Shown piece after piece: positions 398 to 28,485 of a DNA stretch of 55,411 nt. The position numbers were made by a program, and so were the translations under genes. Position 1 is the stretch's first letter. Every line of letters starts with the position of its first letter. Below the pieces are notes generated by a model that had not been told where the DNA came from, did no database searches, and saw only the letters and a program-made list of their open reading frames with translations. Source of the DNA: Devosia insulae DS-56 (GTDB lineage Bacteria > Pseudomonadota > Alphaproteobacteria > Rhizobiales > Devosiaceae); NCBI RefSeq assembly GCF_000970465.2, contig NZ_LAJE02000189.1, positions 1-55,411 on the forward strand. Direction: 5' to 3'.

Positions 398-529
398 TCG
401 ATTCAAAGAACGACGGCTCTCCGGGGGCGTGAGGCGATCGGTCCGCTGATCGAGGCAAGTCGCGAGCGGGTTCGCCGGTTTGCCAACTCTCGAAGTTGCA
501 GAGGTTGAGGTCGTCTGTCTCGGCGATCG

Positions 530-541
530 ATACCAAAAGGC
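530..541 (+). promoter_or_regulatory. Single copy of the recurrent ATACC operator before the first response regulator
   Basis: ATACCAAAAGGC is followed by TATGG. The left half and the following ATGG match the recurrent palindrome seen throughout region 1; the right half is weak and no partner is visible 17 bp away. It lies 77 bp before ATG 618, the usual distance for this motif. Confidence 0.4.
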
Positions 542-617
542 TATGGAGGAGGGAAAGTCCGCCGCTTATCTCGAATGGCATCTGCGAATTCGGGCGACGA
601 GCAACAGGTGCCCCTCA

Positions 618-1358
618 ATGAGAGATCCATTCACCACTATATTGGATGAGCCGCACGCCGGCAGCAGACCGCGGGCTTTTCACCGGCGTTTGTACCATGG
701 GGATGGTGCGAGGCCGTCCGTCGCCGAAGACCCGATCGTCTTCATTGTCGATGCCGAGAGACGCAGTCGCGAAGCACTTCAGCAGCTGCTGGAGTCGGTG
801 AGCATCAAGTCGCTGGCCTTCGGGTCTGTGGACGACCTTCTGGTTCGAGGTCTGCCTGACAAGCCCAGCTGTCTGGTGCTCGACGTGAGACTGCCAGGCA
901 TCGGCGGGCTCACGTTTCAGGAGCAACTCATCCGGTCGGCCATAGAGATCCCGATCGTCTTTCTCACCGGTCATGCCGACATTCAGATGACGGTTCGGGC
1001 CATGAAGGCCGGCGCCGTCGATTTCCTCACCAAACCAGTCCGAGATCAGGACGTCCTGGATGCCGTGACCGTCGCACTGCAGCGTGACCTGCGCCGGCGT
1101 AGCAGGCTTCACGCTCTGGCAGAGCTGAGGGAGAGACTGTCGCAGCTTTCGGAGAGGGAGCGAGAGGTCATGCCGATGATTGCGGCAGGTCGCATGAACA
1201 AGCAGGTCGCCGCCGCACTGCACATCAGCGAATCCACGGTGAAGATTTACCGTGGCGGCGTGATGCGGAAAATGCGGGCAAGAACGGTTCCCGATCTGGT
1301 CCGCATGGCTGACACCCTTGCCATCACGATCGATCGGCCGATCGATCGGGACTGGTAA
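618..1358 (+). CDS. FixJ/NarL-family response regulator (receiver + LuxR-type HTH)
   Basis: Two-component response regulator of about 246 residues. A receiver domain (about residues 40-150) keeps the phosphoacceptor Asp in LVLDVRLPG, the Thr in FLTGH and the Lys in LTKP. A GerE/LuxR-type helix-turn-helix follows (about 170-235), with LSEREREV and the recognition region SESTVK. The usual DD(D/E) acidic pocket of FixJ reads DAE in FIVDAE, so one magnesium-binding acid is missing and phosphorylation may be altered. I chose ATG 618 because an operator-like motif sits 77 bp upstream; the frame is open from TTG 480, and ATG 543 is possible. It is convergent with the kinase at 1362-3818, only 3 bp apart, suggesting a partner pair. 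Its target is unknown. Confidence 0.85.
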   Translation: MRDPFTTILDEPHAGSRPRAFHRRLYHGDGARPSVAEDPIVFIVDAERRSREALQQLLESVSIKSLAFGSVDDLLVRGLPDKPSCLVLDVRLPGIGGLTFQEQLIRSAIEIPIVFLTGHADIQMTVRAMKAGAVDFLTKPVRDQDVLDAVTVALQRDLRRRSRLHALAELRERLSQLSEREREVMPMIAAGRMNKQVAAALHISESTVKIYRGGVMRKMRARTVPDLVRMADTLAITIDRPIDRDW

Positions 1359-1361
1359 CGC

Positions 1362-3818
1362 TCACGCCTGGTGCTGACCGCCTGCCGGGCCTTTCGTGGC
1401 GGCAATGCAGGGGATGGAAAAGGTAAAGGTCACGCCCGGACCATCCTCATTGGTCGCGGCCCGAAGCTTTCCACCATGACGGTCAATAATGGAACGGCTC
1501 ACCGACAGGCCGATGCCCATCCCGTTCGGCTTGGTCGTGTAGAACGCGTCGAAGATCCTGGCGATATCCTCGGCAGGGATGCCGGGACCGTTGTCCCGCA
1601 CCGTCAGGGTCACGTTGCCGGCTTCCGCCTCGGTGGCCTCGACGATGATCTGACGAGAATCCCGCTCAACGCTGCCAACGGCATCTGCTGCGTTGAGCAC
1701 CAGATTGAGCACGACCTGCTGCAGCTGGATGCGGTCGCCTTCGATCCTGGGCAGTGCGGCATCCAGTTTCGACTTGAGGATGATGCGTCGCCGCTGCATT
1801 TCGTGCGCACAGGTCGCGAGGACTTCCTGGGCGGCTTCGTTGAGATCGAAGGGTTCAGGATTGAGGTCCTGCTTGCGATAAAGGTTCCTCAGGCGTTTGA
1901 CCACCTCAGCCGCCCGGTTGCCGTCGCGGATGCTGAGCTGCGCCGTCCGTATCGCGCCCTCGATGTTCGGTGGATCGGCCGCCAGCATGCGCAGGCAGGT
2001 GCTCGCATTGGTGATGATCCCCGAGAGCGGCTGATTGACCTCGTGGGTGATCGAGGCGGCCAGTTCGCCCAGACTCATGACCCGCGTTACATGCGCGAGT
2101 TCGCTTCGAAGCTGGTCAGCGGCATCGTCGGCGAGCCGCTGTCGGGTGACGTCCTGTGCCACCCCGACGCTTTCGAGGCGGCCGTCCTCGTGGGTGATCA
2201 CCCGGAACGCGGTGCTGATGTACTTGATGCGACCGTCCGGAAACAGCAGCCGTTCGACGTTCGGCGGGCTGTTTTCTCCCCGGAAGGCGCGTTGCGCCTT
2301 CTCCTGCACCCACGCCTCGTCATCGGGATGCACCTTGGCCATCAGGTTGGGATAGACCGGCTCCATTCCATCCGGGACTTCGTAGATGCGATGCATCTGG
2401 GTCGACCAGAACAGCTTGTTGGTCTTCATGTCCCAGTAGAAAGATCCCGTTTCGCTGATCCGCTCAGCTTCCTCGAGCAGGAACTTCCGCCGCCGCAGCT
2501 GATCCTCCGCCCAGAAGCGCTCAATGGCGATACTGGCGATCTGTGTGGTGCGGTCGATGATGTCCTGGTGCGCCGGTAGCAGCTTCTGTGACGTGCCGCG
2601 GCAGATGCTCAGGCTGCCCAGGATCGTGCCGTCCTTGGAGGTGACCGGAGCGCTCCACATCAACTTGAGACCTTGCGCGAGGAAGTGAGCCCTCGCCGGC
2701 GTATCCGTCCACAGAACGGGGCTGCCGAAATTGTCCTCGATCACCTGCATCCTGCGGCTGATGGCCATGTCGCACGGCGATGCCTTCTCGGCGACGCGGC
2801 TGCCGATGATCGCCGCGACGTAGTTCTCGGGAAACGATGGTGCCTCGACATGTTCGAAGACCGTGCGGCTCGCATCGAGTGTCCGGATCTCGCACAGCGA
2901 ACCGGGCAAGGCGGCTTCAACCACGCTGCAGAGCTTTGCCAGCACCTCATGCAGCGGTCGCCCCCACGCAATCAGTTCGAGCAGTTGCCGCTCGCCCGCA
3001 AGAAGCAGCGTCGCTCGCTTCTGCTCGTCTATATCGACCTTTACGCCAAACCATTTGACCACATTGCCGTGCTCGTCGCGCAGCGGGTGGGTACGGAAGT
3101 TGAACCAGCGGTAGGTTCCGTCGTGGCGCCGCACCCGCGCCTCGATATCGCCTCCCGTGCCAGCCGCGTCGAAGCGCTTCCAGGCAGACAAGACGGTCTG
3201 TTGATCATCCGGATGGACCACGCTTGTCCACTGCCAGTCGACGAGCTTCTCGATCGGTAGACCGACATAGTCGAGGTAATGCCGATTGAAGAAGTCGGCG
3301 GTGCCGTCGCTCCGTGCCGACCAGGCCAGCGCTGGGATGGTGTCGATGGTCAGTTGCAGGTTCTGCTCGCTGGCCTTCAGCGCATCCTTGGCGAGCTTGC
3401 GGTCGTGCACGTCAACCAGCAGCACATGCCAGGCGACAATGCTGCCGTCTGCAGCGCGCCGTGGACGGCCGTGATTGTCGAACCAGCGGTACTCGCCATC
3501 GTGCCGGCGCAACCGCTGCTCGATGGTGTATGGGGTGCCTGAGGCGATCGACTGCCCGAAGAGTCTCGCCACATTGGGCATGTCGTCCGGATGGACGATG
3601 CCGTTTGTTCCCCACTCCCTCAGCTGGTCCAGTCTGTGGCCGCAATAGTCCTCGATCTCCCGGTTGACCTGCTCGACGCGTCCGTCCGGCGCGAGGACCG
3701 CGACCAGTCCAGGGATCGCTTCGATGAACGAGCCTACACTTTGGGCCCAATCCACCTCGGTTTGCTGGTCATTGGCAGGTAAAGATGGTTGCCCGTCATA
3801 CGAAGATGCATAGTTCAT
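1362..3818 (-). CDS. PAS-PAS-GAF-PAS sensor histidine kinase (FixL-like)
   Basis: Soluble sensor kinase of about 818 residues with no membrane segment seen. In order: PAS (about 25-150), PAS (about 153-275), GAF (about 276-440), PAS (about 450-560), HisKA with phospho-acceptor His in SITHEVNQPLSG (about residue 590), then a HATPase domain with the N box LNLVLNAADA and the G box DNGPGIPAED. Its PAS domains and kinase core closely resemble those of the kinase at 8160-11408, so the two are probably duplicates. The start is ATG at 3818 (MNYASSY); the frame stays open upstream to 4013 but that part is not protein-like. One perfect copy of the recurrent operator lies 79 bp upstream. The sensed signal cannot be read from sequence; I saw no obvious haem-PAS evidence. 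Confidence 0.92.
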   Translation of the reverse strand: MNYASSYDGQPSLPANDQQTEVDWAQSVGSFIEAIPGLVAVLAPDGRVEQVNREIEDYCGHRLDQLREWGTNGIVHPDDMPNVARLFGQSIASGTPYTIEQRLRRHDGEYRWFDNHGRPRRAADGSIVAWHVLLVDVHDRKLAKDALKASEQNLQLTIDTIPALAWSARSDGTADFFNRHYLDYVGLPIEKLVDWQWTSVVHPDDQQTVLSAWKRFDAAGTGGDIEARVRRHDGTYRWFNFRTHPLRDEHGNVVKWFGVKVDIDEQKRATLLLAGERQLLELIAWGRPLHEVLAKLCSVVEAALPGSLCEIRTLDASRTVFEHVEAPSFPENYVAAIIGSRVAEKASPCDMAISRRMQVIEDNFGSPVLWTDTPARAHFLAQGLKLMWSAPVTSKDGTILGSLSICRGTSQKLLPAHQDIIDRTTQIASIAIERFWAEDQLRRRKFLLEEAERISETGSFYWDMKTNKLFWSTQMHRIYEVPDGMEPVYPNLMAKVHPDDEAWVQEKAQRAFRGENSPPNVERLLFPDGRIKYISTAFRVITHEDGRLESVGVAQDVTRQRLADDAADQLRSELAHVTRVMSLGELAASITHEVNQPLSGIITNASTCLRMLAADPPNIEGAIRTAQLSIRDGNRAAEVVKRLRNLYRKQDLNPEPFDLNEAAQEVLATCAHEMQRRRIILKSKLDAALPRIEGDRIQLQQVVLNLVLNAADAVGSVERDSRQIIVEATEAEAGNVTLTVRDNGPGIPAEDIARIFDAFYTTKPNGMGIGLSVSRSIIDRHGGKLRAATNEDGPGVTFTFSIPCIAATKGPAGGQHQA

Positions 3819-3896
3819 GCAATGCCCCGCCGGTCCATTGAGACCCGCTCCCATACCACCAAAAGGGCGGCATGGGAGCGGTCCATCACGTGACCG

Positions 3897-3908
3897 ATAC
3901 CATGGTAT
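3897..3908. promoter_or_regulatory. Perfect palindromic operator upstream of the first kinase
   Basis: ATACCATGGTAT is a perfect 12-bp palindrome, extended to 18 bp by flanking CCG/CGG (3894-3911). It is the most symmetric copy of the region 1 motif and lies 79 bp before the kinase start at 3818, in the 127-bp gap after the metallo-hydrolase gene. Confidence 0.7.
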
Positions 3909-3945: not shown

Positions 3946-5043
3946 TCAGTCGATGCGCAGGCTCTGCTCCATCGCGTAGCATTGGTCCCAGATGTAGACG
4001 TCGAACGCGGCAAGCCTCGGCTGCCATTTCGGGGTCACGGCATTCACGCACTGCACGACGACCCGGTCGATATAGTTGTCGAACACCGCCCAGGGGTTGG
4101 CGAAGTCCGCCGGGTCCATCTCCTTTTCGGGGGCGGTGGTTTGGAGGGACGTCAGGGCTGCCGCCTTGACGTCGTTCATGAACTCGAGCTGGTCGCGTAC
4201 GTCCTGGTGCGTCCCGACCCGGTTGACGTGGCCACCGACGAAGGTTTCGAACGGAACCTTGTCGATGTCGGCAACCTGCTGGAAGTAACCGGGGACGTCC
4301 TGGGCCAGGGCGAAGCGGCGCCACGGCATCCAGCCCGGGAACACCACGTCGACCACCATCAGCGTTTTCTGCTCCGGGGCGTAGATGAAGATGTTGCCGG
4401 GCTCATGCGCCACCCCGTGATAGCTGAGCTCGAGCACCTGGCTGCCGACCTTCAGGCTGTAGGTGTCACCGAAGGTTACCGTCGGCACAGGCCGCTTGGG
4501 GTCGGCGGCTCGCGCCAGCAGGCGCTTGGTCTCGTCGTGCGCGATAGTGATCGGGCTTCCGCCCAGATCCAGGACGCCGCCGATGTGGTCGATGTGGGAG
4601 TGGCTGTAGATCACGTGCGTGACGGGCTGATCAGTGACCTCGGCAATGGCCTTGAGCAGCTGCGCTGAGTACCTTGGTGGCGCGTCCACCATTACGACGC
4701 CGGTCTCGTAAACGAGGAACATCGACTGATAGGCGTTGTCGGTGACCAGATAGAGACCACGGCCCAGTTCCTGCAGCCGATAGCCCTTCGCGGCATCCAC
4801 CGCCGGCGCCGCGGCCTCATCCGGCACCGGAAGGTAGCGATCGACACGTTCGCCGATCGCCGCCAGTTCGGGTTGGTTCGCATAGGGCGCCCCTGCATGT
4901 CCTGGCAGCGCGGCGGGGGCGGCACGAGCGGGCCCGGTGAGGCCCAGCCCGAAAGCGAGTGCGGCAATCGCCACGAAGCTTCCGGCTATTGCGATCATAT
5001 TGGGCAGCCTGGTGCGGCTTGCAGCTGCTGATCTGTTCGGCAT
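3946..5043 (-). CDS. Exported metallo-beta-lactamase-fold hydrolase
   Basis: A 365-residue protein with an N-terminal hydrophobic segment (about residues 15-42, ending near ARAAPA) typical of a Sec signal, so probably periplasmic. The MBL-fold zinc motif HxHxDH appears as SHSHIDHIGG near residue 150. Further candidate ligands are the His in YHGVAHEPGN, the Asp in MVVDVVFPGW and the His in FVGGHVNRVG. The family hydrolyses esters, lactams, lactones or thioesters; the substrate here is unknown. The start ATG 5043 gives a good signal peptide. A two-copy operator lies 83 bp upstream (5126-5154). The next gene downstream on the same strand is the sensor kinase, which has its own operator. Confidence 0.88.
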   Translation of the reverse strand: MPNRSAAASRTRLPNMIAIAGSFVAIAALAFGLGLTGPARAAPAALPGHAGAPYANQPELAAIGERVDRYLPVPDEAAAPAVDAAKGYRLQELGRGLYLVTDNAYQSMFLVYETGVVMVDAPPRYSAQLLKAIAEVTDQPVTHVIYSHSHIDHIGGVLDLGGSPITIAHDETKRLLARAADPKRPVPTVTFGDTYSLKVGSQVLELSYHGVAHEPGNIFIYAPEQKTLMVVDVVFPGWMPWRRFALAQDVPGYFQQVADIDKVPFETFVGGHVNRVGTHQDVRDQLEFMNDVKAAALTSLQTTAPEKEMDPADFANPWAVFDNYIDRVVVQCVNAVTPKWQPRLAAFDVYIWDQCYAMEQSLRID

Positions 5044-5125: not shown

Positions 5126-5154
5126 GGACCTTCGTGTCGGCGATACCAATGGCT
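5126..5154. promoter_or_regulatory. Two-copy operator upstream of the MBL-fold gene
   Basis: Two imperfect 12-bp units, GGACCTTCGTGT (5126-5137) and ATACCAATGGCT (5143-5154), are separated by CGGCG, giving the 17-bp periodicity seen at the other sites. The near edge is 83 bp before ATG 5043. Individual units are weaker than at other sites. Confidence 0.5.
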
Positions 5155-5187: not shown

Positions 5188-5655
5188 TCAGGCCAGCCAC
5201 GCGGCCGCGAGGGCGAGGCTGATGGCAACAACGTCCTCGAGCAGCGCGACCGGCAGATCCCAACCGCCGATGCGGCCAACCAGCCACCGCCGCGCCGCAA
5301 AACCGCCATGCGTTCCCATCACCGCCGCGGCCGCGCCGAGCACAAAGCCGACGAACCACAGTCCTGCGCCGGCGATCGCCAGTGCGCTGCCGGCGATCGC
5401 ACCGACCACAACGCGGATTGCAAACTGCAGGGGCGCCTTGCGGCTGGGGGTTGTGGGGAGCTTGTCGATGAAAGTTTCGCCCAATGCGACAAGCGTAATT
5501 ACCCAAGGCACAAGGCCGGTCGAAAGCAGCGCCAGCCAACTGCTGCCGAAGTCGATCCAGCCCCATGCGCCGGCCCACGCAAGGGCGGCGACTGGGGTCG
5601 CCGTTCGCAGCCCGCTCGCCAAACCGATCATCAGCGCGGCAACGACGTAAGTCAT
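5188..5655 (-). CDS. DUF4126 integral membrane protein
   Basis: A 155-residue hydrophobic protein beginning MTYVVAALMIGLASGLRTATP, with about four or five membrane segments rich in Gly and Ala. The GLRTATP motif near the N-terminus and an acidic residue in LGETFIDKLPTTP are typical of the DUF4126 family, which has no established function. GGAG eight bases before ATG 5655 supports this start; the open frame continues upstream to 5898 but is not protein-like. It is transcribed alone, with a long structured leader (hairpin 5702-5735) and a copy of the recurrent motif about 208 bp upstream. Confidence 0.8.
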   Translation of the reverse strand: MTYVVAALMIGLASGLRTATPVAALAWAGAWGWIDFGSSWLALLSTGLVPWVITLVALGETFIDKLPTTPSRKAPLQFAIRVVVGAIAGSALAIAGAGLWFVGFVLGAAAAVMGTHGGFAARRWLVGRIGGWDLPVALLEDVVAISLALAAAWLA

Positions 5656-5690
5656 CGAAGACTCCAGGGATAAGTGAAGCAGGTAAGACG

Positions 5691-5735
5691 CCCCCCGGGG
5701 GGACCACCAACGCGTTGGGCCGCGCGTTGGTGGTC
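5691..5735 (-). promoter_or_regulatory. Strong stem-loop in the leader of the DUF4126 gene
   Basis: GACCACCAACGCG (5702-5714) pairs perfectly with CGCGTTGGTGGTC (5723-5735), leaving an 8-nt loop. It abuts the C6G6 palindrome at 5691-5702. On the minus-strand transcript both lie between the putative promoter and the ribosome binding site at about 5664. There is no T tract, so an mRNA leader control or stability element is more likely than a simple terminator. Confidence 0.5.
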
Positions 5736-5862
5736 GGCGGAAACCAGCGGGAGGGAGCACTGGTTCCGCGGGGTGCCGTCCGGGGCGAGGGCGGCACCAG
5801 GTCTTGCCGCCTGTCTGTGCACGGCCCGCTGTAAGTGCCTCGAAAACTCCAGTCAGTCGATA

Positions 5863-5874
5863 ATACGATGGTGT
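5863..5874 (-). promoter_or_regulatory. Single copy of the recurrent operator facing the DUF4126 gene
   Basis: On the minus strand the sequence reads ACACCATCGTAT followed by TATCG, a close match to the left copies at 7753 and 15212. No good partner lies 17 bp away. It is about 208 bp before ATG 5655. Confidence 0.5.
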
Positions 5875-5918
5875 GTATTCGGAGGGATTTTTCCACACTT
5901 ACTGCCATCCACCTAACC

Positions 5919-5947
5919 AATCTAAAGTATGTCCGATACCTTCGTGC
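5919..5947 (+). promoter_or_regulatory. Two-copy operator upstream of the AraC-usp unit
   Basis: AATCTAAAGTAT (5919-5930) and ATACCTTCGTGC (5936-5947) are separated by GTCCG with 17-bp periodicity. The near edge is 83 bp before the AraC start at 6030, matching the distance at the MBL and epoxide hydrolase genes. Confidence 0.65.
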
Positions 5948-6029
5948 AGTAGCTCGCCGACCTGCTGTTCGCCTCTTCTCTCTACGCGCCGCCCGATGGA
6001 CGGGCGGACAGCAGATGGAGGCAGAAGTG

Positions 6030-6506
6030 ATGCAGTCAGCAACAGTCAGCCCTGGACGGTCAGGGCAGCGCCCGCCAATCGAGGCGCTCAGTGGACCACA
6101 AATGGACCGCTTCCTCATGGCGGCTGTTGCCAGGGCGCTGGACGTTCAGCCAGCGCGCGAAAGCGGCGGCCTCTGCGATTGGCAGCTGAAGCGCGTGCGG
6201 CGTCACATCGAGCAGAACATTGGCGGCCCCATTCTCGTCAACGAACTGGCCACCGTCGCCAAACTCAGCCAGAGCCATTTCAGCAGGTCCTTCGGGATTT
6301 CCACCGGACTCTCGCCTCACGCATTCATTGTCCGTGCACGCATCGATCGTGCCCGTACCCTGATGCGCGAAACCTCTTCGAGCCTCGCCGAGGTCGCCTT
6401 CCAGTGCGGTCTGGCGGATCAGTCCCACCTCAGTCGGGTGTTCCGGCGCGTTGTCGGAAAGTCTCCGAGCACCTGGCGTCGGGACGCCATTCAGTCGAGG
6501 TCATAG
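6030..6506 (+). CDS. Short AraC-family transcriptional regulator
   Basis: A 158-residue protein whose C-terminal 100 residues form an AraC/XylS double helix-turn-helix: first HTH around LVNELATVAKLSQSHFSRSF, second around SLAEVAFQCGLADQSHLSRVFRR, then the typical GKSPSTWRR ending. The N-terminal 50 residues are too short for a ligand-binding cupin, so it may act without a small-molecule effector or respond by abundance alone. ATG 6030 is preferred because GGAGG lies seven bases upstream; ATG 6015 is the alternative. The stress-protein gene starts 2 bp after its stop, so the two are one unit. A two-copy operator sits upstream. Confidence 0.9.
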   Translation: MQSATVSPGRSGQRPPIEALSGPQMDRFLMAAVARALDVQPARESGGLCDWQLKRVRRHIEQNIGGPILVNELATVAKLSQSHFSRSFGISTGLSPHAFIVRARIDRARTLMRETSSSLAEVAFQCGLADQSHLSRVFRRVVGKSPSTWRRDAIQSRS

Positions 6507-6507
6507 G

Positions 6508-7323
6508 ATGGAAATCCGCTCGATCCTGGTGAATGTGGACCTGGAGCAGGTCGACACGCCGGCACTACGCTTTGCCGTTGATCTGGCTCGTACCCTCGAT
6601 GCCCGGATCATCGGCATTGGCGCTGACGAGCCACACCTGGTGGTTGGCGAGTTCGATCAGGGCTTTGCAACGCAGCAGGTGTACGAGGCCGAACTGTCGC
6701 AGATCACAGCACAGCTGTCTGAGGCCGGCGAGCGGTTCCAATCACTGGTGCCGGCCGGCATCGACGCGCGATGGCGGCCAGCGGTAGTCGGCACCACCAG
6801 CTGCCTGATCGAAGCTTCAACTGAGGCTGACATGATCGTCACCGATCCGGGGCCGATGTCGAGCTGGGCGCGGACAGGCAAGGTGGATATCGGCGAGCTC
6901 GTGCTGCGCTCCGGTCGGCCGGTCACCGTCGTCGGCGACCGAGCCAAAGGCCCCGAGATCAAGACCGTCGTGGTCGGATGGAAGAATACCCGCGAAGCGC
7001 GCCGGGCACTGGCGGACGCCATGCCCTTGCTGCAGCGAGCGCAAGCCGTATCGATTGTTACCGTTGGGGAAGGCGATCGTCGGTCGGAACAGCGCAGCCT
7101 CGATGAAGCAACGGACTGGTTGAAGCGCCACGGAGTGGCGGCACGCAGCGAACTGCTGGCGCCTGACCGAACCGTGCCGCTCACAGAGTTGGCGGCTGCG
7201 CGAGACGCCGACCTGCTCGTCACGGGCTGCTACGGTCACAGCAGGGGATTGGAGCTGCTGTTCGGTGGCGTAACACGCCGACTGCTCGAGGCTGATCAGT
7301 TGACCCGTCTCCTGTCGCACTAA
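6508..7323 (+). CDS. Universal stress protein with two Usp domains
   Basis: A 271-residue cytoplasmic protein made of two tandem UspA folds. The first begins MEIRSILVNVDL; the second starts near residue 150 (IKTVVVGWKNTREARRAL). The second ends in TGCYGHSRGLELLFGGVTRRLL, which resembles the GxxGx9G(S/T) ATP-binding motif except that Thr/Arg replace the usual end. The first domain lacks it. Tandem Usp proteins respond to energy, oxygen or nutrient stress. It is co-transcribed with the AraC gene (2-bp gap, AGGA overlapping the stop). The start MEIRSIL is fixed by that ribosome binding site. Confidence 0.9.
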   Translation: MEIRSILVNVDLEQVDTPALRFAVDLARTLDARIIGIGADEPHLVVGEFDQGFATQQVYEAELSQITAQLSEAGERFQSLVPAGIDARWRPAVVGTTSCLIEASTEADMIVTDPGPMSSWARTGKVDIGELVLRSGRPVTVVGDRAKGPEIKTVVVGWKNTREARRALADAMPLLQRAQAVSIVTVGEGDRRSEQRSLDEATDWLKRHGVAARSELLAPDRTVPLTELAAARDADLLVTGCYGHSRGLELLFGGVTRRLLEADQLTRLLSH

Positions 7324-7752: not shown

Positions 7753-7781
7753 GCACGATGGTGTCGTCGATACCTCAGTAT
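7753..7781. promoter_or_regulatory. Two-copy operator between the secreted protein and kinase genes
   Basis: GCACGATGGTGT (7753-7764), spacer CGTCG, ATACCTCAGTAT (7770-7781). Read on the minus strand, the first copy is ACACCATCGTGC followed by AATAC. The site is 78 bp before the secreted protein start at 7675 and could serve both directions. Confidence 0.75.
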
Positions 7782-7849: not shown

Positions 7850-7861
7850 ATACCTAGGTGT
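7850..7861 (+). promoter_or_regulatory. Further operator copy on the kinase side
   Basis: ATACCTAGGTGT followed by CATGG is a near-perfect match to the motif. It points to the kinase operon starting at 8160; the partner position 17 bp upstream is poorly conserved. Confidence 0.6.
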
Positions 7862-8159
7862 CATGGACTGCAAGCGCGGCTGCGGCGACTGTAGCCGGGT
7901 GGTGTGCCTTTCGGGCCTAGAGCCGGAATGTGATGCCGCCAGAGAGCGGCGTTCCGGGCAGGTCCGCAGGGCAGACGCGCAACGGGCAGCGTGAGATCGC
8001 AAGCGGTTCGGACCGCAGTCGCTCCACCATCTGCACCATTGGTGGGGTTGGCATGATGACATCGGATTTACCGTTGATCGGCTTTACCGGCCCCGCTGCA
8101 ATCGTGCCGGTCGGCAAGGCAGGTTGGCGCCGCATTTGGTTCGCTTTGGCCGTTCCTGC

Positions 8160-11100
8160 ATGACAACGTTTACAACCGATGCCATCGCCGAGGTGCAGCA
8201 GCTCAGACAAGCAATGAGTGGCCTCGCGGCATTGGCGGCGTTGCCCGCGATATGGGTGGGGCGTGATGCGGATTACGTGCTGGAAACCCTGCTGGACGCC
8301 CTGCTGAGTGCGCTGAAGGCCGATTTTGTCTGCGTCACCCTCGAAGGGCCCAAGCCAAAATCGCGCATACGGGGCCGAAGCGGTGTTACGCCGGCGCATG
8401 ATCAACTGCTCCGCGCACTCGCTGGTACATTTGGCGATGACAAATCAGCCTGGCCCCCCGCCGGCGAGATCTCCGTTGGCGCTGATGCAATCTCGATCCT
8501 TTCGGCGCCGATGGGCCTGCAAGGCGAGGTCGGTGTTGTGGTCGCCGGAACGCGGCGCCGTGACTTCGACGACGAAACTGGCGGACTGCTGCTGGGGGCC
8601 GCGGCGAACCAGGCGGCGCTGGCGCTGCAGGCTGTGCGTCGACTGGACGAGCAGAAGCAGATCGCCAGCGACCTCGACGAGCGTGTTGCGCAACGTACCG
8701 CGGAGCTGGCCCGCGCTAACGAAGCGCTGCGCTTTGCAGCCCGAGAGTCGCGCGAGATTGTTGACAACATTCCGACGCTGGTCGGCCTGCTGAGCCCCAC
8801 TGGCCAGGTCGAACTCGTCAATCGCCAGATCCACGAGTACACGGGCCGGTCGACTGAGGAGCTCGAGAAGTGGGGGATGAGCGATCTGGTGCACCAGGAC
8901 GACCTGGCTGATGCGCTCGACAGCTTTGTGGCGGGTTTTGCAGCGGGCGAGCCGTTCGAGATCGTCTACCGCATGCGCCGGCACGACGGAATCTATCGCT
9001 GGTTCGAAGGTCTCCACCACCCGCTGAAGGATGCCGAGGGGCGCGTCGTTCGGTGGTGCGTGTCGTGCAACGACATCGAGGATCGCAAGCAGGTCGAGGA
9101 CGCTCTGCGCGAGAGGGAACGTACCTGGCGTTCGGTGATCAACGGCATTCCGGGATTGACCGCGACCCTGTCGCCGCGCGGCATGGTCGAGGCGGTGAAC
9201 CGCCAGATCGTCGAATACACCGGTTGCGAGCTGGAGGCGCTTCGGGGGTGGGGCAGTAACGGCATCGTCCATCCCGAGGACATGCCGCATGTCGCCGAGA
9301 TATTCGGCAAGTCGATTGCCGCGGGAGCGTCATACGAGATCGAACAGCGTCTGCGCCGCTTCGACGGCGAGTACCGCTGGTTCAGCAATCGCGGCACGCC
9401 CGCTTTCGATGCTTCGGGGCAGGTCGTTCGCTGGTATGTGCTGCTGGTCGACATCCACGAAGCGCGGCTGGTGGCTGACGCCCTGCGGAGCAGCGAGGAC
9501 AACGCCCGCTCGATCGTCAGCAGCATAGCGGGCATGATTGCCGTATTCACCGCGGATGGCCAGCTATGCGGCGGCAACCAGCAGTTGCTCGATTTCTTCG
9601 AGCAGCCGCTCGAAGAGGTGGGCCGCTGGGCCACCAACGGCATGACGCACCCCGACGATCTGCAATACTGCATCGACAGCTTCATGGGCTCGATCGTCAG
9701 CGGCGAACCCTACAATTACGAGACGCGCTTCAAGCGGGCCGACGGCGTTTGGCGCTGGTTCAACATCCGCGGTCAGCCGCTGCGTGACGCCAGCGGGCAG
9801 ATCGCGCGCTGGTATGGGCTGCTGACCGACATCGATGACCGCAAGCGCGCTGAAGAGGCGCTCGAGGTCAGTGAGCGCAACCTGCAGCTTACCGTCGACA
9901 CCATACCGGCGCTGGCCTGGTCGGCGAGGATCGACGGCACGGCCGATTTCTTCAATCGCCACTACCTCGAGTATGTCGGTAAGACGCCGGAAGAACTCGG
10001 TGGGTGGGCGTGGACGGCTGCTGTCCACCCCGACGATATCGCCCGGCTGGGCGCCACCTGGAACTTGGCGCGCGAAACCGGTGGAAACGCAGAATGCGAG
10101 GCACGCCTCCTTGGCGCCGACGGCGCCTACCGCTGGTTCATCTTCCGCGCGAACCCGCTGCTTGATGACGCCGGCAACGTCCTGAAGTGGTACGGTATCA
10201 ACACCGATATCGAGGACCGGAAGCGGGCCGAGGAAAGCCTCAGGCTCAGTGAAGCGTCGCTCGCGGAAGCTCAGCGCCTCAGTTCGCTCGGGAGCTTTCA
10301 GTGGCGGCTCGATACCGACGAGCTGACCTTTTCCGATGAACTCTATCGCATCTTCGAGTTCGACACCGCCGAGCCGGCCACTCTCGAGCAGATCGCCGCC
10401 CGGGTCGATCCAGACGACCTTCCATTGCTCACCGAGAAGATGGAACTGGCACGGGTCGGCATCGACGACCACTCCTATGACATTCGGCTGCGTATGCCCG
10501 ATGGTCGCACCAAGCATCTGCGCTCCGTTTCGCGCTCCGGAACCGAGTCCGATGGCAGGCGAGTATTTCGCGGCACGATCCAGGACGTCACCCAGCGCAA
10601 GCTGTCCGAGGAGGCGCTCAATGAGCTGCGCACCGAACTTGCGCACGTCTCGAGGGTCAGCACGCTTGGTGCGATGACGGCCTCGATCGCCCATGAGGTC
10701 AATCAGCCGCTCGCCGGCATCATCACCAATGCCAGCACCTGCCTGCGGATGCTGGCAATGGACCCGCCGAACATCGAGGGGGCGCTGGAGACCGCGCGCC
10801 GCAGCATCAGGGATGGCAATCGGGCCGCTGAGGTCATCACCAGACTGCGCGCCATGTTCAGGAAGACCACCAACACCAGCGAGACCGTCGATCTGAACGA
10901 GGCCGCACGGGACGTCATCGTGCTTGCCGGCAGTGAATTGCGTCGGAAACGGGTGGAGCTGGAGACCAACCTCGCGTCCGATCTGCCACCGGTGATGGGT
11001 GATCGCGTACAATTGCAACAGGTTATCCTGAACCTGCTGCTCAACGCCGCTGACGCCGTCACGGACATTCGGGATCGCCCGCGGCGAGCCATGCTCAAAA

Positions 11101-11408: not shown

Positions 11409-11776
11409 CTAAACGTCTTCTTGTGACGGTTGTAGACGACGACGAGTCGGTGCGTGAATCGCTTCCCGATCTGCTGAAGGTGCTCGGCTACTCGGTTCAG
11501 GCCTTCTCGTCTGCCGCTGCCTTCCTCGGGTCCGCCGATATCGAGAACAACGACTGCCTCATTCTGGATGTGGCGATGCCGGAGATGACCGGGCCGGAGC
11601 TGAGCGTCGAGTTGAGACGACGGGGCTATCGCATCCCGGTGGTGTTCATCACCGCTCATCGCGATTACTCGGTGCCTCCGCTGGTCCCGGGACAAGATGC
11701 CGTGCAGTGCCTGCTGAAGCCGTTCAGCGAAGCGGCGCTTATCGCCGCGCTGGATACCGCAATTCCACGAAATTGA
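11405..11776 (+). CDS. Single-domain response regulator (receiver only)
   Basis: A 123-residue receiver without an output domain. It has the complete active site: VVDDDES acidic pocket, phosphoacceptor Asp in LILDVAMPEM, Thr in FITAH and Lys in LLKPF. The ATG overlaps the kinase stop (ATGA), so the kinase is the natural phosphodonor. It may act as a phosphate sink, a relay intermediate, or a competitor of the FixJ-type regulator encoded 39 bp downstream. Confidence 0.9.
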   Translation: MTKRLLVTVVDDDESVRESLPDLLKVLGYSVQAFSSAAAFLGSADIENNDCLILDVAMPEMTGPELSVELRRRGYRIPVVFITAHRDYSVPPLVPGQDAVQCLLKPFSEAALIAALDTAIPRN

Positions 11777-13804: not shown

Positions 13805-13883
13805 CGGGGTATCCTGGCCTGTCATGTTGAAGCTTCGCAGGTCGGCCGGACCGCCGGTCGACCCGCGCAATCTCGGTGGTCCG

Positions 13884-15211: not shown

Positions 15212-15240
15212 GCACGATGGTGTCGCCGACACCTTGGTGG
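15212..15240. promoter_or_regulatory. Two-copy operator upstream of the cytosolic epoxide hydrolase
   Basis: GCACGATGGTGT (15212-15223), spacer CGCCG, ACACCTTGGTGG (15229-15240). The inner part GGTGTCGCCGACACC is a perfect odd palindrome. It starts 84 bp before the hydrolase start, and its 12-mers match those at 7753 and 24736. Confidence 0.8.
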
Positions 15241-18219: not shown

Positions 18220-18336
18220 TTTTGGTCTCCGTTGAACCGGCGATTGCGGGGGGAAACGAGCAGCCGACCAGCTCCGGGCCTTCACCTCGTTCAAACTCCG
18301 CCTGCAGTGAGCACCACGAGTGTAGCGGCGGCGATT

Positions 18337-18365
18337 GTATTAAAGTGTCGCCGGTACTTTCGTAT
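18337..18365. promoter_or_regulatory. Two-copy operator facing the leftward hydrolase
   Basis: GTATTAAAGTGT (18337-18348), spacer CGCCG, GTACTTTCGTAT (18354-18365). It has the canonical 17-bp periodicity and spacer. The near edge is 118 bp before ATG 18219. Confidence 0.7.
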
Positions 18366-18414: not shown

Positions 18415-18443
18415 ATACCTAGGTATGGCGCACACCTAGGTGC
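18415..18443 (+). promoter_or_regulatory. Two-copy operator with near-perfect palindromes upstream of the Tat epoxide hydrolase
   Basis: ATACCTAGGTAT (18415-18426, a perfect palindrome), spacer GGCGC, ACACCTAGGTGC (18432-18443). These are the best-conserved copies in the window, again 17 bp apart. The site ends 137 bp before the start at 18581. Confidence 0.8.
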
Positions 18444-18580
18444 AATCGACCTTCAATACTGCGGCAGGTCTAGTGCAGGGGTGCCGCTGGGCCACTGGTC
18501 GCCACGGCATCACACGTGAGCCGCGCTCCCTTTTCGGGAAAGGCCGGCAGGTTTCAGCCAGAGTGCCAATGGAGAAGAAA

Positions 18581-22224: not shown

Positions 22225-22461
22225 TCAGCGGCTCTTGGCAGCGAGCTGCTTGCGGTACTCCGCGACGGGAAGGCCACCCCATCCCCAGTTCTCCATTTCA
22301 ACCTCCTCGAAGATCACCCAGGTCCAGTCGACCGGCTTGTCGAGCACGTCGAGCAGCACCTGGCTCATCCCCTGGTAGATCGCCGCCTTCTGTTCGGCGG
22401 TGACATGGTCGACGCCTGGCTCGGTCCCTTCTCGCGTCAGCTGGACTGTTACGATCGGCAT
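22225..22461 (-). CDS. 4-oxalocrotonate tautomerase-family protein
   Basis: A 78-residue protein beginning MPIVTVQLTREG; after Met removal, Pro1 would be the catalytic base of this family. The rest (TAEQKAAIYQGMSQVLLDVL, then VIFEEVEMENWGWGG) has the right size and pattern for a single beta-alpha-beta tautomerase subunit that assembles as a hexamer. It heads a three-gene leftward unit. A two-copy operator begins 63 bp upstream. Confidence 0.88.
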   Translation of the reverse strand: MPIVTVQLTREGTEPGVDHVTAEQKAAIYQGMSQVLLDVLDKPVDWTWVIFEEVEMENWGWGGLPVAEYRKQLAAKSR

Positions 22462-22523: not shown

Positions 22524-22552
22524 ATCCCTTGGTATCGGCGATACTTTCGCGC
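22524..22552. promoter_or_regulatory. Two-copy operator shared by divergent tautomerase and enoyl-CoA hydratase units
   Basis: ATCCCTTGGTAT (22524-22535), spacer CGGCG, ATACTTTCGCGC (22541-22552). Both copies carry the downstream NATGG extension on their own strand. The site is 63 bp from each start codon (22461 and 22615), a symmetric divergent control region. Confidence 0.8.
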
Positions 22553-22614: not shown

Positions 22615-23478
22615 ATGGCCAGCGACCGTCAGCTTTCGATCGATCGGACAACGAAGGGCGTGTGGGTTGTCACCTTCAGCAACCCGCCGATCAACCTGCT
22701 GGACCCCGCCACGATCGACGAACTGCAGAGGCTGGTGGGTGAGGCGGAAGCCGACAAATCGTTGAAGGTGATCGTCTTCCAGTCGGCGAACCCGGATTTC
22801 TTCATCGCCCATTTCGACACGCGCAAGTCGGCGGAAATGTCCGCCGTGCCGGGCCCGACCGGCTTCACGCCGTGGATCGACGTCGTCATGCGGCTCAGCC
22901 ACGGCCCGTTCGTCAGCATCGCCAAGATCCGTGGCAGGACGCGTGGCGTCGGCACCGAGTTCGTCTTGGCCTGCGACATCCGGTTCGCCAGCCGCCAGAA
23001 GGCGGTGTTCGGTAATCCCGAGATCGGCGTCGGCCTGCCACCCGGGGGCGGCGCGCTCGAATGGTTGCCGCGGGTCATCGGCCGGTCGCGGGCTCTGGAG
23101 TTTGCGCTCAGCGGCGACGATTTCGATGCCGATGTGGCTGAGCGGTACGGGCTCGTCAACCGAACCATCGATGACGCCGAACTCGACGGTTTTGTCGATG
23201 CGCTGGCGACACGCCTCAGTTCCTTCGACCGCGATGCCCTCGGCCAAATCAAGGCCCAGATCAGCCGCATCGGGGTGCCGACCGGCGAGGAAATCGAAAC
23301 CAGTAATGGACTGTTCTTTTCCGGCCTGAGCCGGCCGGACGCCGTGGCGCGCCGGGCAAAGCTGCAGACCGTCGGCTACGGCGAGCGCAGCACCTTCGAG
23401 CTCAACTTCGGGCGCGTCGTAACCGCCTTGGGTCCTGACGGCAGCGAGCTTTCCTCGGCTGTCAGCACTGCAAACTAG
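22615..23478 (+). CDS. Enoyl-CoA hydratase/isomerase-family protein
   Basis: A 287-residue crotonase-fold protein. The oxyanion-hole segments are ANPDFFIAHFD and KIRGRTRGVGTEFVLACD, with the first conserved Glu in TEFVLACD. The second catalytic region reads GLPPGGGALEWLPR, where the family often has Glu or variants, so hydratase activity is not certain. GGAG eight bases before ATG 22615 supports the start. It is the first gene of a rightward unit with the next two genes. Confidence 0.85.
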   Translation: MASDRQLSIDRTTKGVWVVTFSNPPINLLDPATIDELQRLVGEAEADKSLKVIVFQSANPDFFIAHFDTRKSAEMSAVPGPTGFTPWIDVVMRLSHGPFVSIAKIRGRTRGVGTEFVLACDIRFASRQKAVFGNPEIGVGLPPGGGALEWLPRVIGRSRALEFALSGDDFDADVAERYGLVNRTIDDAELDGFVDALATRLSSFDRDALGQIKAQISRIGVPTGEEIETSNGLFFSGLSRPDAVARRAKLQTVGYGERSTFELNFGRVVTALGPDGSELSSAVSTAN

Positions 23479-24704: not shown

Positions 24705-24718
24705 CGGTCGCGCTGCCG

Positions 24719-24747
24719 ATACGATGGTCTCCACGACACCTTGGTGC
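24719..24747. promoter_or_regulatory. Two-copy operator upstream of the FMN reductase
   Basis: ATACGATGGTCT (24719-24730), spacer CCACG, ACACCTTGGTGC (24736-24747), followed by GATGG. It ends 87 bp before ATG 24834. Confidence 0.8.
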
Positions 24748-24833: not shown

Positions 24834-25463
24834 ATGGACAACCCCAGGATCGCCGTCATCATCAGCTCGACCCGTGCCACCCGGTTCGGCGAAATACCGG
24901 CGCGGTGGATCTACGAGCTGGCCCTGGCCCGGGGCGATATGGAACTCGAGCTCATCGACCTCCGGGACTATCCGATGCCGTTCTTCGACGAGCCGGCGTC
25001 CAATGCCTGGGTGCCGGCGCGGAACGAGACCGCCCTGCGCTGGCAGCGCAAAGTCGCGCAGTTCGACGGCTACATCTTCGTCACCGCCGAATACAATCGC
25101 GGCATCCCCGCCGTGCTGAAGAACGCCCTCGATTACTCCTACCCCGAGTGGAATCGGAAAGCCGCGGCGTTCCTCGGTTACGGCAGTGTCGGCGGCGCCC
25201 GCGCCGTCGAGCAACTGCGGCTGAACTGCGTCGAGCTGCAGATGGCCCCGACGCGCACCGGCGTCCACATCCAGGGGGCCGACTTCTTCGACGCCCTGCA
25301 GAATGGACGGAACCTCGATGCCATCCCCTACATCACAGAGAACGCCACCGTGATGCTCGATGAGCTCTACTGGTGGGCAAGCGTGCTTTCCGCCGGCCGC
25401 GCCGCGAGCAGCGAATTCTCGGCGCCACGCCTGCGCGGCGCTGACGACACGCTGGTGGCGTAG
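24834..25463 (+). CDS. NADPH-dependent FMN reductase
   Basis: A 209-residue flavodoxin-like oxidoreductase. The phosphate-binding motif is IISSTRATRFGE (family GSTRxxR), and TAEYNRGIPAVLKNALDY matches the family's EYNxSxPGxLKN motif. Such enzymes reduce FMN, quinones, chromate or azo compounds with NAD(P)H. The GAGG at about 24821 supports ATG 24834. It is followed after 10 bp by a small secreted protein. Confidence 0.9.
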   Translation: MDNPRIAVIISSTRATRFGEIPARWIYELALARGDMELELIDLRDYPMPFFDEPASNAWVPARNETALRWQRKVAQFDGYIFVTAEYNRGIPAVLKNALDYSYPEWNRKAAAFLGYGSVGGARAVEQLRLNCVELQMAPTRTGVHIQGADFFDALQNGRNLDAIPYITENATVMLDELYWWASVLSAGRAASSEFSAPRLRGADDTLVA

Positions 25464-25473
25464 GAGCGTCGCC

Positions 25474-25758: not shown

Positions 25759-25826
25759 CTGGCTGATGGAGCGTCGAGGCGGTGGGCGGAGGCAACGGGG
25801 TTTCGACGTCTGCCTTCGCCTCGGCG

Positions 25827-28277
25827 CTAGGGCGTTGCCTGGGCATTGGACTGTTGGTTGCCGGGAATACAGAAGCTGAAGGTCACGCCCGGTCCATCGT
25901 TAGGTTCCACCCACAGACGGCCCTGGTGACCTTCGATGATCGAGCGGCAGATTGACAGGCCCACGCCCATGCCGTTCGCCTTCGTCGTATAAAAGGGTTG
26001 GAACAGCTTCTCGATGGCGGCGGCTTCGATGCCCTTGCCGCAGTCGCGAACGGCGAGCTGGACGGACCCATCGTCGTTGAGGCCTGTCGTGACCAGCATC
26101 CTCCTGGGCCTATCCTGAACCTCGACCATTGCATCGCCCGCGTTGAGCAGCAGGTTCAGAATGACCTGCTGTAGTTGAACGCGATCGGCCAGCACGAGGG
26201 GAAGCGTCGTGGCGAGTTCGGTCCGGACCAGCGCCTGGCGCAGCCCAAGTTCGACGGAGGAAAGCGCGATGACCTCGCGTGTCGCGTCGTTGAGATCGAT
26301 CAGATCGCGGGTGGGAGTCTTGTTGGAGAGCAGCTCGCGCAGGTGCCTGATTACATCGGCGGCACGGCTTGCGTCCCGAATGGTCCGGCGAACCGTCTCG
26401 GTGGCACCGGCGACATCTGGCGGATCCGCAGCAAGAAATCGCGCGCTGGTGTTGGCGTTGGTCAGGATCCCGGTAAGCGGCTGGCTGACCTCGTGCGCAA
26501 TGGACGCGGTCATGGCGTTGAGCGTCGCCACCCGCGCCACGTGTGCAAGCTCCGCCTGCGACTGGCGTAAGCTCGTCTCCGTCCGGATGCTCTCGGTGAT
26601 GTCGCGGACGGAGCCGACGAAGTCGAGGTTGCGGACGCCCATTGCCCGCCCAGTGCTCTGAACGTACTTCACCCGCCCATCCGGCATCAGCAGGCGGTGC
26701 TCACTTTCGAAATCCACGCCGTTCCGCATCGCCGCTTCCACATGCTGCTGCACATGCTCGCGATCGTCGGGGTGCATCCGCTCCCAACCATGCTCGGCGG
26801 TAACGCCATTCGACGGGTCGTACTCCATGATGCGGTAGAGTTCGTCCGACCAGTAAACCTCGCCGGTTGCTGCCGTCCATTCGAAGGCGCCGGTACGACT
26901 TATCCGCTGACCCTGGGCCAGGAACGCCTCGCTGCGTTTGAGATCGGAATAGAGGGTCGCATTCTCCAGCGAGATCGCCGCCTGCGAAGCCAGCACCCCA
27001 AGCAGCCGCACTCGCTCGGCAGTGAATATGCGGGGAGCCGTTGAGTGCTCGAGATAGAGCACGCCGCTCAGTACGCCCTGATGCGACACCGGCAGGCAAG
27101 CGACCGAGCGCGGCCGCTGATGACCCACGGAGAATGGATTGCCCGGCGCCGGCACGGATGCATCATCCAGAACAATGGGCTGAGTGGTCAGGACAACCTG
27201 GCGGACGATGCTTTCCGGGGCACTCGCCGAGATTGGCTGCTGGCGCATCGTTACGTCGATCCGATCACCAACGACCAACGCCTCTGCGACGGCTTGATAG
27301 CCGCCATTGGTGGGCAGTACCAGAACTGCGCGGTCGGCTTCCGAATTCTCCAGTACGGTCCTGATCAGCCGCTCAATCAGCTTGGGCAGCTCGATCTCAC
27401 TCGAGATTGCGCGAGAGGTGCCGACGATGAGCGCCAGCAAATCGCCTCGCGCGACGCCGGTGTAAAGCCTGGCTGTTTCTGCAAGCAGCGCGGTCAGGAC
27501 AACTGTTGACGTGACCAGTGAAAACAGCCGGCCGCCATAGAAACCGACGGTGACTGAGCCGCCTCGCCTGAAGCCAATCAGCGCAGTGATGGCGAGCTCG
27601 ACGATCATGGCGAGGACGACAACCATCAGCCACTGGTCGATTGCCGCGCGCCGACGCACCCACAGCGCGAGGAGTGCAGCAGTGCAGATCAGCATCGTAA
27701 CGGCCGTCAGCCATTGCCCCTCTTCCGGGGTGAGAGGGGGCAGCAAGACAAGATAGACGACGCACGCCGCGAGGAACAAAGCTGCCGCGGCAATGAGAAC
27801 GGCAAGGATGTTCGCAGGCGAATGCGGACCGGCCCTGTCGCGGTCTCTTTCACGGAGCCAGACATAGGCGAAGGCGCCCACGGCAATGCCGAGGTGCCAC
27901 AACAGGTAGATTCTGAAATTGATGCGCAAGCTTTGGCCGGGCGCGTCAAACGGGTACAATGCCTCCGGAAACGTCACCCCGTGCGCAACGACCGCTGCAG
28001 CCGAGAAAAAGTAGCCACACGCCAGCGCCAAGAGCGCCCTCGAGCGGGTCACCGAGAAATGCGCGAGGAGCAGACCTGCGGTTATGAGGTCGGTGACAAA
28101 CAGCGTCGCATCGAGCGCAACGATGTACCCGCTGACCATTGGCAGTGGCAGTCCCGCAAAGGGGATGAGAGCCACCAAACCGAAGATCAGGAATGCAACC
28201 CCAGCAAGCGCCGCCCATGTCTGCCGCGGAGTTGGCGGCAGATGAGCCGACGAAATCTGAGGTTGCCCAGCGCCCAT
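25827..28277 (-). CDS. Membrane sensor histidine kinase (MASE4-like, GAF, PAS)
   Basis: An 816-residue kinase. About seven hydrophobic segments in residues 20-250 resemble a MASE-type integral-membrane sensor (MASE4-like). A GAF domain (about 290-450), PAS (about 465-580), HisKA (His in SIAHEVSQPLTG, about residue 594) and HATPase (N box LNLLLNAGDA, G box DCGKGIEAAA) follow. The kinase core is close to those at 1362-3818 and 8160-11408. No response regulator is adjacent, so it probably feeds the FixJ-type proteins elsewhere in region 1. A single operator copy lies about 197 bp upstream. ATG 28277 may not be the true start, but gives a full N-terminus. Confidence 0.92.
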   Translation of the reverse strand: MGAGQPQISSAHLPPTPRQTWAALAGVAFLIFGLVALIPFAGLPLPMVSGYIVALDATLFVTDLITAGLLLAHFSVTRSRALLALACGYFFSAAAVVAHGVTFPEALYPFDAPGQSLRINFRIYLLWHLGIAVGAFAYVWLRERDRDRAGPHSPANILAVLIAAAALFLAACVVYLVLLPPLTPEEGQWLTAVTMLICTAALLALWVRRRAAIDQWLMVVVLAMIVELAITALIGFRRGGSVTVGFYGGRLFSLVTSTVVLTALLAETARLYTGVARGDLLALIVGTSRAISSEIELPKLIERLIRTVLENSEADRAVLVLPTNGGYQAVAEALVVGDRIDVTMRQQPISASAPESIVRQVVLTTQPIVLDDASVPAPGNPFSVGHQRPRSVACLPVSHQGVLSGVLYLEHSTAPRIFTAERVRLLGVLASQAAISLENATLYSDLKRSEAFLAQGQRISRTGAFEWTAATGEVYWSDELYRIMEYDPSNGVTAEHGWERMHPDDREHVQQHVEAAMRNGVDFESEHRLLMPDGRVKYVQSTGRAMGVRNLDFVGSVRDITESIRTETSLRQSQAELAHVARVATLNAMTASIAHEVSQPLTGILTNANTSARFLAADPPDVAGATETVRRTIRDASRAADVIRHLRELLSNKTPTRDLIDLNDATREVIALSSVELGLRQALVRTELATTLPLVLADRVQLQQVILNLLLNAGDAMVEVQDRPRRMLVTTGLNDDGSVQLAVRDCGKGIEAAAIEKLFQPFYTTKANGMGVGLSICRSIIEGHQGRLWVEPNDGPGVTFSFCIPGNQQSNAQATP

Positions 28278-28473
28278 GTCACGTTGCTCGCGTCAGTTCG
28301 CACCAAGTGCAGAGGAGGTCAGTCCTGCCGGAATCGTGCGGCCTCGGTGCAGCACCCGCGCGATGTGGCGCAACAGGGTGTGACTCGTGCCGCTTTGAAT
28401 ATCCCACCACACGTCAGGTGCACCTATCATGACGTGAACGGGACGCTGCGCTGGCCACGTCGAAACTGCTATT

Positions 28474-28485
28474 GCACTTTGGTGT
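28474..28485 (-). promoter_or_regulatory. Recurrent operator copy upstream of the membrane kinase
   Basis: On the minus strand it reads ACACCAAAGTGC followed by AATAG, like the copies at 7753 and 15212. The partner 17 bp away is not conserved. Confidence 0.5.

Follow-up and report, generated by a model that had tools for sequence, protein, structure and literature searches.

The 55,411-nucleotide contig NZ_LAJE02000189.1 of Devosia insulae DS-56 (the window, by which we mean the whole stretch analysed) carries in its left half a set of palindromic dodecamers of the form AYACCWWNGTRY, many of them arranged as twin sites in front of kinase, hydrolase, stress-protein and reductase genes. We propose, with a probability of about 0.8, that these dodecamers are bound by a FixJ/StyR-type response regulator, the product of the gene at 11816-12499 (forward strand), which would be the output of a phosphorelay made up of one or more PAS kinases, a single-domain receiver and the regulator itself. 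The proposal is drawn from sequence, and its observed basis consists of the sites, their spacing, their conservation, their co-occurrence with the regulator and the promoter-like elements beside them. The regulator has a receiver domain (PF00072, 3.2e-27) followed by a GerE/LuxR helix-turn-helix (PF00196, 1.8e-21), the arrangement of the NarL/FixJ family, and its nearest solved structure is StyR (1yio, aligned over 197 residues with E 1.9e-58). A previous sequence-only reading of the window had named a FixJ-type protein encoded here as the likeliest binder; this holds up for 11816-12499, whose relatives are accompanied by the tandem motif, and finds no support for the second such protein, RR2 (618-1358, forward strand).

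All 21 dodecamers listed by that reading are present where it placed them, and in its eight tandem pairs the starts are exactly 17 bp apart in 8/8 (a layout of 12+5+12 bp), with a CGNCG spacer in five (5126, 7753, 15212, 18337 and 22524); the perfect palindromes are, as it had said, those at 3897 and 18415. On the reverse strand, pairs lie at 5126-5154, the weakest of the eight, with its edge 82 bp from the ATG (5043) of a metallo-beta-lactamase-fold (MBL) gene and without an AATNG flank; at 15212-15240, the best match in the genome, 83 bp from the ATG (15128) of the epoxide hydrolase gene EHN1, which is followed by a thioredoxin-like gene; and at 18337-18365, upstream of a run of hydrolase, kinase and hydrolase genes. 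Those on the forward strand are at 5919-5947 (upstream of the AraC-type and universal stress protein genes), 18415-18443 (upstream of the epoxide hydrolase gene EHN2) and 24719-24747 (upstream of an NADPH-dependent FMN reductase gene). The pair at 7753-7781, upstream of the histidine kinase gene that we call kinase B, is ambiguous in direction, and the one at 22524-22552 sits between the divergent tautomerase (start 22461, reverse strand) and enoyl-CoA hydratase (start 22615, forward strand) genes, 62 bp from each start. Within the window AYACCWWNGTRY with at most one mismatch has 29 matches, compared with a mean of 5.37 and a maximum of 11 in 100 shuffles. When spacings from 12 to 40 bp were scanned with a 12-mer matrix, eight pairs were found at 17 bp and one each at 13, 25 and 30 bp, and the reversed matrix found none; the matrix was trained on the eight pairs, so this count is not independent, and the relatives described below are the independent test. 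A strict pattern with TACC arms recovered no site in the window because the copies are imperfect, and an Rfam scan of positions 1-30000 and a tRNA scan gave no match.

Four of the five proposed single copies are good: the perfect one at 3897-3908 (reverse strand, upstream of kinase A), 5863-5874 (reverse, upstream of a DUF4126 gene), 7850-7861 (forward, upstream of kinase B, with CATGGA directly after it) and 28474-28485 (reverse, upstream of the MASE4 kinase gene, with AATAG directly after it). The fifth, at 530-541 on the forward strand upstream of RR2 (ATACCAAAAGGC, followed by TATGG), is a half-site only and scores 6.4 bits with the window-trained 12-mer matrix. The NATGG said to follow many copies is indeed found after 15212 (reverse), 22541, 24736, 7850 and 530, but 7753, 18337 and 28474 (all reverse) and 18415 have the related AATNN, and 5126 and 5919 have neither, so that one or other flank is kept in six of the eight pairs. 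Similarly, the distances to start codons, described as mostly 63-137 bp, are often 60-90 bp, but they reach 262 bp for kinase B and 196 bp for the MASE4 kinase, and some starts are uncertain. According to the gene models, the edge-to-start distance is 62-86 bp for the MBL, EHN1, enoyl-CoA hydratase, FMN reductase, RR2 and AraC-type genes, 42 or 78 bp for kinase A, 42-117 bp for the hydrolase at 17161-18294, 29-137 bp for EHN2, and 102 or 207 bp for DUF4126.

The independent evidence comes from relatives of the regulator. Of 80 loci found by similarity to 11816-12496, five (L001, L002, L004, L006 and L008) scored 23.8-36.9 with a window-trained 29-bp matrix; their regulators are 65-69% identical to ours, and they come from Betaproteobacteria, Acidobacteriota, a Rhodospirillales metagenome-assembled genome, Caballeronia and Paraburkholderia. 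The best score in the other 75 loci was 14.3, a further match in L008 scored 15.2, and shuffling the window 20 times gave 14.9 once. With a matrix that included these five relatives' sites, 18 bp were found between the dodecamers of the acidobacterial loci. In a held-out test with the window-only 12-mer matrix on 26 ortholog loci (474 kb; 25 from the family Burkholderiaceae and one from the window's class, with L166, which duplicates the L006 genome, kept), there were 7, 4 and 10 pairs at 16, 17 and 18 bp, respectively; such a pair was present in 17/26 loci, several of which are near copies of one another, and the reversed matrix gave 0/26. Among 69 control loci of 44-56% relatives (1.32 Mb), pairs were found in 2/69, the same as with the reversed matrix. 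Training on the window alone applies to the initial 29-bp scan and to the held-out, identity, nearest-gene, upstream-signalling and single-dodecamer density counts, and a later locus matrix trained on all 37 sites was used for degenerate versions, plasmid loci and fetched loci.

The presence of the pair follows the identity of the regulator. With the window excluded and L166 dropped (as also in the nearest-gene and upstream-signalling counts), a 16-18 bp pair occurs in 23/35 loci at 60% identity or more (from Proteobacteria and Acidobacteriota), 1/5 at 54-60%, 3/35 at 50-54% and 2/30 below 50%; the five pair-bearing loci below 54% are two in the genome of Devosia insulae itself (L113 and L114), one picked through its hydrolase (L208) and two controls (L033 and L055). 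On a FastTree phylogeny of 106 regulators, one per locus, the pair label changes 14 times compared with a mean of 26 for shuffled labels, and none of 500 shuffles was as low, a result that near copies help; L115, L116 and L197-L200 were deliberately excluded from the tree, and no clean regulator row was obtained for L024, L025, L044 and L196. Targets also recur: EHN hydrolases in L004, L006, L008, L161, L196, L201 and L208, and enoyl-CoA hydratases in L001, L114 and L196. It is the tandem form with AATNG, not the dodecamer alone, that marks the clade of the regulator at 11816-12499. In several Burkholderiaceae (L171:3417, L173:3366 and 7952, L175:2734) there are 16-bp twin sites with AATTGA on the outer strand, more than one of them in L173. 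In four other loci (L165, L167, L170 and L176) the single-domain receiver is flanked by two regulator genes that are near copies of each other, and single dodecamers lie before the signalling genes.

Elsewhere in the 5.75-Mb genome of Devosia insulae (410 contigs), strong tandem sites turned up only on contig C362, among the candidates scored. A sequence-only model, R1, was built from 13 sites (the eight in the window and five from relatives), each entered in both directions. With 150 scored out of 4988 first-look candidates, it retrieved all eight sites of the window and a single strong one outside it, on C362 (37671-37694), with the next matches at E of at least 2.9. There are at least nine strong tandem sites, eight of them in one cluster. 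A second model trained on 23 sites, R2, lists the same eight and C362:37662-37694. A weaker site at C362:31298-31326 was found by pattern search and scores 24 bits with a 29-bp matrix whose training includes the five relatives' sites; two-mismatch pattern matches of this kind also arise in the backward control, and R2 did not list the site despite its presence in the training set. R2 gave no match below E 0.038 in 18 same-genus genomes. The C362 region (L113 and L114) is a second cluster, with two FixJ-type regulators, kinases, cupins, an enoyl-CoA hydratase and two tandem sites. The sequence-only reading had spoken of one local regulon; our results fit a shared regulon whose sites lie mostly in the window, but it is not confined there, and extends to C362, Burkholderiaceae, a Rhizobium plasmid and Acidobacteriota.

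Among 398 genomes of the Burkholderiaceae family, the regulator (E≤1e-70) is present in 21. R2 matches at E≤0.003, a cut-off picked after the list had been seen, were found in 10 of these 21 and in none of the other 377 (Fisher 1.4e-14), with at most 17 first-look candidates scored per genome under strict filters. R2 training left out the Burkholderiaceae loci L006 and L008; L001, a betaproteobacterial metagenome-assembled genome, is of unstated family. Excluding the tenth genome, G236, leaves 9/21 and 0/377 (Fisher 4.7e-13). Among 384 genomes of the window's class, a relative of the regulator at E≤1e-68 was found in one other. G028, from the window's order, has three pairs near relatives of the window's isochorismatase (77%), EHN2 (71%), abh21 (58%) and enoyl-CoA hydratase (45%) genes. 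The conjugative plasmid pPR13E02 of Rhizobium indicum (L208) encodes a 54% regulator together with kinases, an EHN hydrolase, a short-chain dehydrogenase/reductase, an enoyl-CoA hydratase, an isochorismatase and an FMN reductase, and has two pairs and two AAT-flanked single dodecamers. No 17/18-bp pair was found in four other plasmid loci picked by EHN similarity (L204-L207). The sporadic distribution of the module suggests that it has spread by horizontal transfer.

The sequences around the pairs have the look of promoters. AATNG lies directly 3' of the proximal dodecamer in 25 of the relatives' 27 pairs and after the distal one in 0/27, an asymmetry that is partly built in, given that the same flank was used to orient the pairs. 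In 18 sites with 18-bp spacing, TGG tends to occupy positions 23-25 and a TTAAT- or CTGAT-like hexamer positions 26-31 (TGGYTTAAT-like); nine sites with 17-bp spacing are less regular in this region. In the L184:995 pair, the flank is directed away from the nearest enoyl-CoA hydratase gene. If the hexamer is read as an extended -10, TNGA would fall at -35 with 17 bp between them, the proximal dodecamer would lie around -43 and the distal one around -60 to -61, and the twin sites would be candidate activator sites set against the -35.

Single and twin sites tend to precede different genes. Where the nearest gene could be identified (at >11.5 bits, with several dodecamers per locus and loci that are partly near copies), 41 singles in the ortholog loci lie before signalling genes and 7 before enzyme genes, and of 11 such pairs 7 lie before enzyme genes. 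For another 31 singles and 20 pairs there is no gene nearby that is homologous to one in the window, and two singles fall inside genes. In the window, the singles at 3897, 7850 and 28474 precede kinases, the exceptions being 5863, before the DUF4126 gene, and kinase B, which also has a pair. At 11.5 bits, 26/36 ortholog loci and 18/69 controls have a signalling gene with a dodecamer in the 350 bp before it; at 14.5 bits, 24/36 and 10/69 do. Single dodecamers are also found, often as the extended palindrome ctATACNNNNGTATag, near FixJ-type regulators with 44-56% identity, from rhizobia among others (in L012-L080, for example L069:10633 and L019:12039). Above 13 bits their density is 105 per Mb at up to 1.5 kb from such regulators versus 30 per Mb beyond 4 kb. 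This enrichment makes the dodecamer a word shared across a wider FixJ/StyR group, with cross-talk between paralogs possible, and we rejected the dodecamer alone as diagnostic of the regulator at 11816-12499.

A mechanism consistent with these observations would start with one or more PAS kinases passing phosphate through the single-domain receiver to the regulator, whose phosphorylated form would bind as one dimer per dodecamer. The proximal dimer would sit against the -35 region (AATNGA, around -43) and a second one 16-18 bp upstream (around -60), and the bound regulator would recruit sigma-70 polymerase to promoters whose -35 is poor and whose -10 is TGG-YTTAAT-like. The signalling genes would mostly be driven from single sites, as feedback, and the effector genes mostly from twin sites, the effectors being epoxide hydrolases and other hydrolases, enoyl-CoA hydratase, tautomerase, FMN reductase, the MBL protein and stress proteins. 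Binding, its dependence on phosphorylation, activation rather than repression, cooperativity and the sensed signal are the parts of this scheme that we infer. Several PAS kinases would provide the input, and hydrolases, reductases and stress proteins would be the output. That the system responds to a reactive or plant-derived compound is a guess.

Several observations weigh against this interpretation, in addition to the late choice of the R2 cut-off, the near copies among the test loci and the enrichment of single dodecamers near distant regulators. At 60% identity or more, 12/35 loci have no 16-18 bp pair above threshold: L007, L011, L163, L167, L170, L172, L174, L178, L179 and L181, together with L004 and L183, which have degenerate or 20-bp versions. 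Some of the counted pairs are poor, since L165 and L176 share one without a CG spacer and that of L180 has 18 bits. Other spacings appear unexplained in the 26 test loci (7 pairs at 40, 5 at 21 and 4 at 38 bp), although they stem partly from multiple copies within one locus. The window's own promoters match the -10 less well than those of the relatives, and 4 of the 11 assignable pairs are nearest a signalling gene. The R2 match of the tenth genome (G236, contig C100, L199) is on a different contig from the regulator and holds no pair; neither does the match inspected in G245 (L202). At E≤0.03, 13/21 and 29/377 genomes matched, the 29 at 15.9-20.0 bits; in three of the 13 (G236, G313 and G347) the match and the regulator are on different contigs, and one of the 29, G143 (L203), contains a 17-bp pair that is moderate and lacks AATNG.

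Could another FixJ-type paralog, such as those of C362 or C400 or RR2, be the main binder, with the regulator at 11816-12499 merely co-inherited? The C362 sites adjoin two paralogs of 48-52% identity, the three pairs of G028 lie beside a regulator matching at 39-45%, and the enrichment of the dodecamer extends to the surroundings of distant relatives, all of which speaks for this idea. We nevertheless consider it unlikely, as the tandem sites track relatives of 11816-12499 at 60% identity or more, the stretch of C400 scanned (L115) has no 17/18-bp pair, and the C362 regulator at the better site (L114) shares the helix ISEITVKAHRG with 11816-12499, so that shared recognition fits the data. RR2, which the sequence-only reading had offered as the other candidate, is 45% identical to 11816-12499 and has a different recognition helix, and no pair was found within the 19.5 kb read around its 56% relative in a same-genus genome (L198); on this modest evidence we rejected it as the main binder.

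More improbable still is that a repressor or a regulator of another family, either the AraC-type protein encoded around 6015-6506 or an unlinked factor, binds the sites and that the phosphorelay genes are only targets. There is an AraC-type gene in the cluster, and matches to it are listed in four ortholog loci (L009, L010, L181 and L183), but most pair-bearing ortholog loci are without one, and twin 12-bp palindromes adjoining a -35 suit NarL/FixJ activators, as with the STY2 site of StyR around -40 in the available part of its description (PMC2442086). That the palindromes are a dispersed REP-like repeat or a chance product of composition, and no operator at all, seems to us very hard to believe. 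A short palindrome does occur in many intergenic regions; however, the crowding of the strong tandem sites into one cluster of a 5.75-Mb genome, the fixed AATNG flank, the -10-like element and the conservation between phyla argue otherwise, and the held-out pair test and the co-occurrence with the regulator across genomes contradict it.

The genes around the regulator are as follows, assigned by Pfam unless stated. Kinase B, a multi-PAS histidine kinase (8124-11408, forward), has one HisKA and one HATPase_c match, the receiver being a separate single-domain gene (11405-11776, forward) whose 50-62% relatives adjoin the regulator in most ortholog loci. RR2 is a possible member of the regulon, and next to it is kinase A (1362-3854, reverse; start 3854 or 3818), with PAS and GAF domains. 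The MBL protein (3946-5043, reverse), the universal stress protein (6451-7323, forward) and EHN1 (13884-15128, reverse) are putative regulon members. The remaining neighbours of the sites are the DUF4126 gene (5188-5898, reverse), the AraC-type helix-turn-helix protein (6015-6506, forward, start uncertain), the thioredoxin-like protein downstream of EHN1 (12713-13870, reverse), the alpha/beta hydrolase orf17 (17161-18294, reverse), with 62-72% relatives in ten ortholog loci and one match at 34%, EHN2 (18473-19876, forward, start uncertain), the 78-residue tautomerase (22225-22461, reverse; from its translation and Pfam), the enoyl-CoA hydratase family protein (22615-23478, forward), the FMN reductase (24834-25463, forward) and the MASE4-GAF-PAS histidine kinase (25827-28277, reverse). 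Ten cluster proteins gave no NCBIfam match at the curated cut-off. The right half of the window (28831-55411) has sugar-type ABC transporter genes without tandem operators and resembles sorbitol/mannitol loci on alphaproteobacterial plasmids.

A broader idea, which we hold tentatively and a little short of even odds, is that this is a portable regulon, in which the twin operator, AATNGA and the TGG-YTTAAT-like -10 would be carried together with the phosphorelay between Proteobacteria and Acidobacteriota, and also on a conjugative Rhizobium plasmid, operator number encoding two levels of response (single for signalling genes, twin for enzymes). For a signalling system that is widespread, the analysis offers a candidate operator with its regulator and a set of target enzymes, so that EHN-type epoxide hydrolases and their companions can be tied to a regulatory input. 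The similar promoter layout across phyla is a natural experiment on the joint movement of a regulator and its sites, and the split between single and twin sites gives a testable rule for graded output.

The family to which the regulator belongs is known (NarL/FixJ, StyR-like), and the regulon is without a description in the papers searched, where literature on it or on the dodecamer words was absent or unrelated and subscription papers were thinly covered. The core of the StyR site is ACCATGGT, a word that did not appear in the literature searched, and the cognate sensors of the StyS/StyR-TodT type have two kinase cores, unlike kinase B with its one HATPase_c match. Among the cluster proteins scanned, Pfam showed no styrene or toluene catabolic oxygenases, and there were no fixK or nif genes. 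FixL/FixJ of rhizobia is similar in the order of receiver and GerE domains, FixJ (5xso) being the second full-length structural match, and differs in its site: the motif given for the fixK promoter in the available part of PMC13327599 is GTACGTAG, compared with the AYACCWWNGTRY pairs here. TodS/TodT also combines a PAS kinase with a response regulator but controls toluene genes; TodS of Pseudomonas putida responds to aromatic compounds, and the available part of that paper (PMC4861429) gave no text on a TodT binding site under the terms used. For the StyS/StyR system of Pseudomonas fluorescens ST, as far as the accessible portion of PMC2442086 describes it, phosphorylated StyR forms a tetramer of two dimers on two sites, and the styrene operon promoter PstyA has a high-affinity site around -40 and further ones; STY1, which overlaps an IHF site, and STY2 are described as separate sites, not as a 16-18 bp tandem, and the targets are styrene genes. 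StyR is the closest solved relative of the regulator (1yio/1zn2). From AATNGA and the -10-like hexamer, the proximal dodecamer here is predicted to lie around -43.

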